Below, piece after piece: positions 61,341 to 63,449 of a stretch of DNA of 64,000 nucleotides. This DNA comes from Formosa algae (GTDB lineage Bacteria; Bacteroidota; Bacteroidia; Flavobacteriales; Flavobacteriaceae), in contig NZ_LMAK01000004.1 in NCBI RefSeq assembly GCF_001439665.1, positions 124,001 through 188,000 on the forward strand, written 5' to 3'. The notes below the pieces were generated by a model. That model searched no databases. It was not told where the DNA came from and worked only from the letters and a program-made list of their open reading frames with translations. A program made the position numbers and the translations under genes. Within the stretch, counting starts at the first letter, position 1; the number at the start of each line of letters is the position of its first letter.

Positions 61341-61835
61341 CTATTTAATTATAATAGATGCAATCTCTAATTTAAAATGTTCTGCTTTTTTATTGGCGAT
61401 TAAAAAGGCGACTTCTTCTATGTTTTGCATATCGAAATTTGGAAGATCTAGTTTACGACCTTTAAAAGTTGGGCACATGTCTTCTAAATCGAATTCGACA
61501 ATATCCCATGTTGTTGAGGTGTTAAAATAGGTTATATACGCATGTTTGTTAGTAGATTTGTCTTTTATTCTGAATTGATACCGTTTCCCGTCTCCTTTAA
61601 TTTTTAGTTTAATTTTTGAAAAATCTTTGGTGTCTAGAGCATCAAAACGATATCTAACAGAAGCAAATCCGCCATTGTTTTCTAAAGACACATCGCCTTC
61701 GTAAACACCGTATCCGTTTTCATTTAAAGAAAATTGACTAGAAGAATTTCCGCCCATAACAACATCATTAACCGTTGTCCATGATGTAATGTCTGCCGTT
61801 TTATTAAATTTGAATATGTGATGTTCTTGTGTCAT
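61341..61835 (-). CDS. CIA30 (NDUFAF1-like) domain protein
   Basis: A 164-residue soluble protein. The CIA30 domain covers nearly all of it: SWTTVNDVVMGGNSSSQFSL, NNGGFASVRYRFDAL and the C-terminal FDMQNIEEVAFLIANK, a jelly-roll related to carbohydrate-binding domains. In eukaryotes the homologue assists complex I assembly; the role of bacterial members is unknown. It lies 4 bp behind the photolyase-related gene and so is the last gene of a DUF2256, photolyase, CIA30 operon. Confidence 0.82.
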   Translation of the reverse strand: MTQEHHIFKFNKTADITSWTTVNDVVMGGNSSSQFSLNENGYGVYEGDVSLENNGGFASVRYRFDALDTKDFSKIKLKIKGDGKRYQFRIKDKSTNKHAYITYFNTSTTWDIVEFDLEDMCPTFKGRKLDLPNFDMQNIEEVAFLIANKKAEHFKLEIASIIIK

Positions 61836-61839
61836 GATA

Positions 61840-63324
61840 TTATTTTAAACTATTTAAATAATTATTAGCGTATTCTAAATGCTTTTGTTGTTTGTCTTCA
61901 GGCATTTTATCGTACATACGTATTAACATGCCTAACCTAGGGTTCGATAAGAAGAAATCGCGTTGCGTATGCATAAATCGCCAAAACAGACCATCCCAAA
62001 TATTTTGCCAATCTCCTTTTTTGTAATTACTCATTTTCATGATATAATTACTACCGCTAATATAAGGTTTAGTTGCTATTAAACCTCCGTCTGCAAACTG
62101 ACTCATTCCATACACATTGGTAACCATAACCCAATCGTAAGCATCAATAAAGAGTTCCATAAACCATTTATAGACTTCATCGGGATCAAATTCACAAAGC
62201 AACATAAAATTACTGAGTATCATTAATCGTTCTATATGATGGCAATATCCAGTTTGTAATACCTTTTTTATGGTTTGATCTATTGGAGGTATTCCTGTTG
62301 TGCCGTTGTAAAAGGACGTAGGTATTTTCTTTTTAAATGCCCAAAAATTAGTGGTGCGTTCTTCGCTTCCTCTAGTTTCGTAAACACCTCTAATAAATTC
62401 CCGCCAACCTATAATTTGTCTTACAAAACCTTCGGTAGAATTAATAGGGATGTTATGTTTTTTAGTATAGCTTAAACAGGAATTAATAACTTCTTTTGGT
62501 GTTATTAAGCCAATATTTAACATGGGAGTTAAAACGCTGTGGTTAAGTATAGAGTTTTCTGCAACAATAGCATCTTCGTAAATACCAAACTCCATAAAGC
62601 GTTGTTCAAAAAATTGGTATAGCCAATCTTTTGTTATTTTAAAATTTGTGGGATATATTTGGTATTCTGTGAGGTGTCCTAGATGATTATCGAAGTGTTT
62701 ATTTACGTATTTTACAGCATTAACATAGTACTGATCTGTTTCAGGAAACTGAATTGAAGGCGGCGTTTTTTTAGCTGGATATTTCTTTCTGTTTTCTGCA
62801 TCGAAAGTCCATTTTCCACCGGTTGGTTGCCCATCTGCATCTATAAGTATGTGTCGTTTTTTACGTTCTTCTGTATAAAATGTGGTTTGATGATACTTTT
62901 TTTTGTCACTCTTGAAAAATACAGAGAGTTCTTCTTTTGTATTTATAAACAAAGGAGAGGGGAGCATGGTTGTTGAAATATTATGTTTAGAACACCCTTG
63001 TTCTATCCGTTTCTGTAACCAATTATCTGTTGGATCTATATAATTTATATGCTGAATGCCTTGTTCTTTTAATACCGGTATTAATTTTCTGATGTCAGAC
63101 AGATTATCAATAGCATCTATATAATGCACTTTGAATTTCTTTTCGGTCAAAAGAAAATCTTCATAACATGTCATGGTTGCCCTATGAAATGCAATTTTTT
63201 GTTTGTGAAAGGGGTATTGTTTAAAAAATAAATACTCTTCAATTAAATACATTGGTGCATCAATTTCAAAAAGTGGAGATTCTTGAAATAATTGATGTGG
63301 AAATATTAAGTTAATGCTTTTCAT
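61840..63324 (-). CDS. Cryptochrome/photolyase-related protein lacking the Fe-S ligands
   Basis: A 494-residue member of the deoxyribodipyrimidine photolyase-related (FeS-BCP/PhrB-CryB) family. It starts [15 protein letters not shown]. The FAD-binding half has [38 protein letters not shown] and [19 protein letters not shown]. Characterised relatives continue with a Cys-x-x-Cys and a third Cys that hold a 4Fe-4S cluster. Here the matching stretch reads [19 protein letters not shown], with K435 and D438 in the Cys places and about ten residues missing. It is probably a flavoprotein for DNA repair or light sensing without the cluster. Its ATG overlaps the stop of the DUF2256 gene. Confidence 0.85.
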
Positions 63325-63449
63325 TTATTTTTTCTGCAACGTTCGCTACAATATTTAACGTGTTCCCAATTGGTTTTCCATTTTTTACGCCAACTAAAAG
63401 GACGTTTACAAACTGCACATATTTTTTGAGGAAGGTGTTCTTTTTTTAT
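63321..63449 (-). CDS. DUF2256 small zinc-ribbon-like protein, AUA start
   Basis: A 42-residue protein with two Cys pairs (KICAVC at residues 9-14 and YCSERC at 33-38) around [17 protein letters not shown], the DUF2256 pattern. The frame has no ATG, GTG or TTG: a TAA stands seven codons before the natural start, and the codon where homologues have Met is ATA (63449-63447), followed by KKEHLPQ. So either AUA is used as start or the gene has lost its start codon. The coding sequence is otherwise intact. Its TGA overlaps the photolyase ATG (ATGA), and DUF2256 genes often adjoin photolyase-family genes. Confidence 0.65.

Follow-up and report, generated by a model that had tools for sequence, protein, structure and literature searches.

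A photolyase gene in Formosa algae raises the question of whether a prokaryotic (6-4) photolyase can do without a [4Fe-4S] cluster and, if so, what the cluster contributes in those enzymes that hold one. The gene lies near the end of a 64,000-nucleotide stretch of contig NZ_LMAK01000004.1, referred to here as the window. The cluster cannot simply be removed, because the A. fabrum enzyme PhrB, once its Cys are mutated, either is insoluble or fails to be expressed (PMC4619345), and a 2025 paper still called its function elusive while reporting that several orthologues miss cysteines (PMC12082625). A gene that lacks the ligands naturally therefore offers another way to approach the question.

The gene product and its former cluster site

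The gene and the parts of it discussed below are as follows.

61840..63324, minus strand: cluster-less prokaryotic (6-4) photolyase P0001, 494 aa (ORF, Pfam, structure homologues, alignment, model)
62665..63309, minus strand: N-terminal DPRP domain, residues 6-220 (Pfam PF04244)
63181..63297, minus strand: remodelled antenna-pocket stretch, residues 10-48, with H10, F33 and R48 at PhrB D10, E37 and F52
62284..62286, minus strand: P347, at the place of the PhrB Fe-S ligand C350 (alignments)
62236..62238, minus strand: H363, equivalent of the catalytic His366 of PhrB (alignments)
61981..62022, minus strand: former cluster site, residues 435-448 ([14 protein letters not shown]), with C438, C441 and C454 absent and a 10-residue shortening (alignments)

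The reading frame is intact, with exactly the coordinates given by an earlier sequence-only reading of the window, and the 494-aa protein carries both the DPRP N-terminal domain (PF04244, E 3.5e-55) and the photolyase FAD domain (PF03441, E 4.4e-9). The closest solved structures are FeS (6-4) photolyases, led by 7ykn from V. cholerae (E 1.7e-77) and 4dja, which is PhrB (2e-67), with 8ijy (S. elongatus), 3zxs (CryB) and 9hnk (Caulobacter) as further nearest FeS relatives. An AlphaFold2 model built from a 60-sequence input has a mean pLDDT of 84.7 (68.6 to 84.7 across five models) and a pTM of 0.87; confidence is low at residues 171-180 and 401-420 and reaches 80-91 at the former cluster site (431-450). 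Foldseek places 4dja at the top for this model (TM 0.90 by query, 0.88 by target), and VIA-align superposes the two with Z 42.3 and rmsd 2.4 over 480 aligned residues, the ten listed prokaryotic (6-4) entries scoring Z 37-42 and the next group 27. Sequence and predicted fold identify the product as a prokaryotic (6-4) photolyase. Purifying selection acts on the gene, with dN 0.065 and dS 0.595 relative to its nearest relative, L004 (87% identical), dS being near saturation for the four other relatives tried.

Alignments with the solved FeS photolyases and with 190 homologues bear out the central claim of the sequence-only reading, that this is a photolyase-related protein without the Fe-S cysteine ligands. 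In PhrB numbering the [4Fe-4S] ligands are C350, C438, C441 and C454, and the query has none of the four: P347 stands opposite C350, K435 opposite C438, a gap opposite C441, and N441 opposite C454. The C438-to-C454 stretch is 10 residues shorter than in PhrB, in agreement with the earlier estimate that about ten residues, including the third Cys, are missing. That reading had further put K435 and D438 at the Cys places, which is fair, the choice of D438 or the gap as the counterpart of C441 being arbitrary; the fourth ligand position, C350, it did not mention. The FAD-region motifs that it listed ([22 protein letters not shown]) are indeed retained.

The full alignment comprises 191 sequences – the own gene, 80 near loci, 99 further even-draw loci and 11 plasmid loci, with a second copy of the own gene (L003) omitted – and in it the Cys state is all-or-none: 78 sequences have all four, 113 have none, and partial sets do not occur. 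Of these 113, 80 were retrieved as near relatives in a search baited with the query, and the other 33 (31 from the even draw, own genome included, and two Persicobacter plasmid genes) form the set used for conservation below; one of the 113, L035, has a broken frame in its record (303 aa) and was left outside the 112-sequence Cys scan and the trees. Because the frame is intact, dN/dS is low, and 113 of 191 sequences are Cys-less without intermediates, the cluster-less state is not a matter of chance or of a broken gene. Three or four conserved Cys elsewhere in the fold, the finding that the sequence-only reading had named as fatal to its claim, were looked for, and a substitute set was not found: only C377 among the query's five Cys is conserved (30/33 cluster-less sequences), CxxC is absent from all 33, and 20 of the 33 have three or fewer Cys in total. 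At the former site itself, W439 and W443 are each present in 32/33 and D444 in 33/33 cluster-less sequences. At these three positions FeS members show no single conserved residue, usually F, and usually N, respectively. The two Trp may fill the space of the cluster.

The residues of lesion binding, proton transfer and the Mg2+ site are kept. Query D175, D251, H363, L367, M407, Y421 and Y427 correspond to PhrB D179, D254, H366, L370, M410, Y424 and Y430, where the roles of H366, Y424 and Y430, like those of W342 and W390, follow PMC4619345, and the roles of the Asp pair (Mg2+ site) and of the antenna site follow PMC12082625. Among the 113 cluster-less sequences H366, L370, M410, Y424, Y430 and D254 are present in 100% and D179 in 99%, and all seven stand at 99-100% in the FeS and cluster-less groups alike. 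They are also identical in 34/34 rows of a second alignment, including 32/32 later loci of both forms, three of which (L195, L197 and L199) lie on contigs as long as those of L008, L053 and L058 and are probably the same genes.

The antenna site and the electron chain differ from those of PhrB. With the putative antenna contacts taken from the Caulobacter enzyme (PMC12082625) and transferred to PhrB numbering by motif, D10 is replaced by H or N, position 37 by F or Y, and position 52 by R in 33/33 cluster-less sequences; L208, which is outside the 33, has L at position 52. Asp10 is present in 98% of the 78 FeS sequences and is H10 in the query, but it is a weak criterion for FeS-BCP membership because the antenna varies inside the subtype, being DMRL or 8-HDF (PMC9178010). 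At the photoreduction Trp pair W342/W390 the query has Y339 and W387, and W342 is Tyr in 23 and Trp in 10 of the 33 cluster-less sequences; a value of 91% Tyr among cluster-less sequences was dropped, as it is inflated by near relatives. In PhrB itself, W342F abolishes photoreduction (PMC4619345). The query also has Phe at PhrB Y460.

Distribution and exchange of the two forms

In an even draw of the own phylum, PF04244 is matched in 100 of 296 genomes, each with exactly one match, of which 69 have four Cys and 31, own included, have none. In the own family 215 of 397 genomes match, 214 of them with a single match and one (G583) with two, both weak. With at most three best candidates scored per genome and the form read from the gap in identity and E-value rather than from the Cys, 77 of these, at least 54% identical to the query, count as cluster-less-like and 138 as FeS-like (E 1.1e-84 or weaker; identity 39% or less among the matches listed). 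Under independence, 7.2 genomes in the phylum and 26.8 in the family would be expected to have both forms, and the chance of zero overlap is 1.6e-4 and 4.7e-17, respectively, kinship being ignored. The two forms are mutually exclusive in the own phylum. Both are present in families f3, f5, f8, f22 and f23 and in the own family (f1), where by eye at least five genera have both in different species.

A quick tree of 104 rows (103 of the 190, picked by identity, plus the viral relative L194 described below), from which the Cys columns were left out, splits 40 cluster-less from 64 FeS rows by one branch with SH-aLRT 100 and length 1.01, corresponding to one change of state; some rows are long (L194, L192, L179 and L188). 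With this support and with the repair residues intact, the natural cluster-less branch proposed in the sequence-only reading is upheld. Because the tree is unrooted it does not give the direction, gain or loss. One divergent cluster-less member, L179 (G041, genome 2.2 Mb), has W439 replaced by G, W443 by F, and P347 by L, and could be a decaying gene or one with another function.

Two genes adjoin the photolyase in the window.

63321..63449, minus strand: DUF2256 small Cys-containing protein, upstream of the photolyase (Pfam)
61341..61835, minus strand: CIA30 family protein, directly downstream of the photolyase (Pfam)

The DUF2256 stop overlaps the photolyase start (ATGA). The first DUF2256 codon is ATA, where relatives L005, L006, L007 and L012 have ATG, and is either a rare start or the sign of a gene under loss. 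As counted from ORF calls in flanks whose lengths differ among loci, DUF2256 is nearby at 50/81 near loci, 8/30 even-draw cluster-less loci, and 1/39 and 6/30 FeS loci; as a marker of the cluster-less form it was rejected on the even-draw count, on its presence at some FeS loci, and on its presence at nearly all loci of both forms in the genus described below. A CIA30 relative is near 19 of 81 near loci (window counted in both numbers). The other photolyase of the own genome is a separate class I-like protein of 425 aa, below the family cut-offs, and since it is kept separately a CPD enzyme is likely already in the genome.

No match was found in 50,697 phage records, and 87 of 72,556 plasmid records match, the best two being Persicobacter megaplasmids (51-53% identity), both cluster-less; the remaining nine of the 11 plasmid records inspected have four Cys. 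The part of the IMG/VR contigs that was scanned yields one relative, L194:3992-5410 (IMGVR_UViG_3300016474_001053), on a giant-virus-like contig where the neighbours by eye resemble DHFR-thymidylate synthase, NUDIX and endonuclease-IV-like genes. Like the query it has no Fe-S ligands (P, G, S and E at the four places) and groups with the cluster-less rows in the tree, but it is only 33% identical to the query, on a long branch of unsure place.

The closest view of the two forms comes from one genus, g158, in which all 22 searched genomes have one match, five cluster-less and 17 FeS, with the Cys places read directly at 22/22 loci; the completeness/contamination filter was passed by only four of the 22 genomes. 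At 21 of the 22 loci the gene lies in the same operon, in the order SDR, class I-like photolyase, DUF2256, Cry-DASH, (6-4) slot, photolyase/cryptochrome, and DUF2805/TIGR03643, and the slot is FeS in 17 and cluster-less in four (L203, L205, L206 and L207). At L207 (a 4.5 kb contig) and L215 the operon is seen in part, cut by contig ends, and at four loci DUF2256 was not called, a like-sized ORF, or none, standing at its place. The operon, as at L204:5186-12369 and the other g158 loci, has four photolyase/cryptochrome genes plus DUF2256 and DUF2805, and its fourth CPF member, of ~490 aa, is highly variable between relatives in the first 200 residues. The fifth cluster-less g158 gene, L208 (G678 C5), is outside the operon and only 48% identical to the query; it may be a separate acquisition or contamination.

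Gene order in L203 and L204 agrees across 18 genes including the slot, the 17 neighbours being 50-82% identical and the slot genes 33%, and flank identity is 88.8% between L205 and the FeS locus L212, 83.9% between L203 and the FeS locus L214, and 76.8% between L206 and its nearest locus. A flank tree of eight concatenated genes – one of them the gene that follows the slot, which may itself have been exchanged in its 5′ portion – needs at least three changes of state (3-3 over the 5-95% bootstrap range), and shuffled labels do as well in 93-95 of 500 trials, such that the cluster-less slots are scattered rather than clustered. In a quick tree of the slot genes, made without L158, L160, L172, L179 and L180, the four cluster-less genes are mutually nearest (support 100), and the FeS slot genes by eye track their flanking genes in resolved clades.

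DNA identity per 50 columns in the pairs L205/L212 and L203/L214 is 62-96% upstream of the slot, drops to 32-46% right after the slot gene starts, and regains 80% or more only ~300 and ~600 bp, respectively, past the slot-gene end. This suggests a recombination-like junction, and protein comparison suggests a tract start within the final codons of Cry-DASH. Over the 5′ portion of the next gene, L203, L205 and L206 are no more alike mutually than to FeS loci, and for this reason a single common donor tract is not supported. Judging from these comparisons, a cluster-less gene most likely reached g158 and then spread between its species by homologous recombination. In a further genus, g358, which has the two forms beside the same two anchor genes, L201/L225 and L202/L226 share these anchors as well as the DUF2256 and DUF2805 genes, but their cassettes differ; in the same-genus pairs G513/G665, G462/G632 and G427/G608 the slot was not collinear.

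Probable repair without a cluster

From its sequence, the protein very probably functions as a light-driven (6-4) DNA photolyase, in a fold that has no [4Fe-4S] cluster, and (6-4) repair is the most likely role because the repair residues are kept and because the gene is exchanged with the FeS form in one slot. Light would excite reduced FAD, directly or via an antenna, and an electron would pass to the (6-4) lesion; H363 would donate a proton, Y421, Y427 and the two Mg2+-site Asp would help to hold the lesion, and the electron would then return. In PhrB the cluster seems to support the C-terminal roof of the protein; here packing around the shorter loop (P347, W439, W443 and D444) may do so instead. 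In the own phylum the cluster-less and FeS forms would be functional substitutes, exchanged within one genus in one operon slot, most likely by recombination, and since there is one form per genome as well as slot exchange, the cluster is probably an optional feature, structural (or redox-tuning), that repair can do without.

Other functions for the protein have to be weighed against this. If (6-4) specificity had been lost along with the cluster, the query would be a CPD photolyase, the role predicted for the cluster-less Phr2 of picocyanobacteria from its missing Cys, with the UV-B sensitivity of a mutant taken to fit (PMC9426592). Yet His366, its partners L370 and M410, and the lesion Tyr424 and Tyr430 are all kept, replacement of the FeS gene in the g158 slot leaves the operon's class I-like photolyase and Cry-DASH in place, and PromaPL is listed as a cluster-less prokaryotic 6-4 photolyase (PMC9178010); we regard a CPD role as very unlikely, and the evidence argues against judging by the cysteines alone which lesion is repaired, the approach taken for picocyanobacteria. 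The change of W342 to Tyr in 23 of 33 sequences alters the photoreduction chain and could fit a cryptochrome-like light sensor or regulator without repair, in keeping with the regulation of photosynthesis genes by CryB (PMC9178010), but strict conservation of the repair residues and replacement of the FeS form within a photolyase operon make this scarcely probable. Least credible is a cluster that is still bound, via other residues or between two subunits: non-Cys ligands are possible, but the sole conserved Cys, the missing CxxC and the low total of Cys described above speak strongly against it.

Why a species should have one form or the other is a separate matter. We lean, with some reserve, towards the flavobacterial FeS and cluster-less forms being interchangeable alleles of one operon slot, moved between species by homologous recombination, in which case the cluster would be a dispensable structural option under varying selection – by iron, oxidants or light colour – outside the repair chemistry. 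Loss of the cluster as an adaptation to iron-poor sea water would be compatible with a working cluster-less (6-4) photolyase and is a possible, though doubtful, cause. Marine iron shortage was reportedly suggested as the cause of cluster loss by Ma et al. in 2019, who are also said to have found that PromaPL repair is Mg2+-stimulated, and the named near relatives, chosen by closeness to the query, are mostly of marine genera; against it, sister species in one genus differ in form with neighbours 84-89% identical.

Slot exchange does not isolate the cluster, because the antenna site and W342 change too, and the exchange could be tracking light colour or photoreduction instead. The sequence-only reading suggested that such a branch would bear on the function of the cluster; the exchange of the two forms in the same slot strengthens this suggestion, and the joint change of cluster and antenna pocket tempers it. 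A natural ligand-less branch, together with sister species that have the other form in the same slot, provides matched enzyme pairs for comparing stability, redox behaviour, lesion binding and dependence on iron; as loss of the cluster accompanies a new antenna pocket, the natural pairs alone do not isolate its effect.

Relation to known photolyases

The cluster-less branch itself is already in print, and the query belongs to a known type. A 2015 paper noted that 7% of 464 members have neither Tyr460 nor the Cys (PMC4619345), and in 2022 subgroup M was defined as 20 of 110 members without the four Cys, including Prochlorococcus PromaPL (PMC9178010). The V. cholerae Phr2-like protein is said to be without Fe-S cysteines in PMC9426592, and the solved structure 7ykn shows CASC...C there. 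The accessible text of PMC9649867, PMC9498864, PMC7560933 and PMC5887102 adds nothing on cluster-less members, and a literature search by title and beginning of abstract found neither exchange of the forms nor flavobacterial members. As far as the literature searched extends, the mutual exclusion in the phylum, the same-slot exchange in g158, and the antenna pocket with the Trp/Trp/Asp signature are new.

With the FeS-BCP or CryPro enzymes (A. fabrum PhrB 4dja, R. sphaeroides CryB 3zxs, 7ykn, C. crescentus 9hnk and SePhrB 8ijy) the query shares the full-length fold, the repair residues and the Mg2+-site Asp pair; DUF2256 is nearby at some FeS-BCP loci, as at the query locus. It differs from them in that the Fe-S ligands are absent, the loop is shorter, the antenna pocket is remodelled, and Tyr and Phe stand at W342 and Y460, respectively. 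In lacking the Fe-S Cys it agrees with subgroup M, the PromaPL type of prokaryotic 6-4 photolyase, as that subgroup is defined in PMC9178010.
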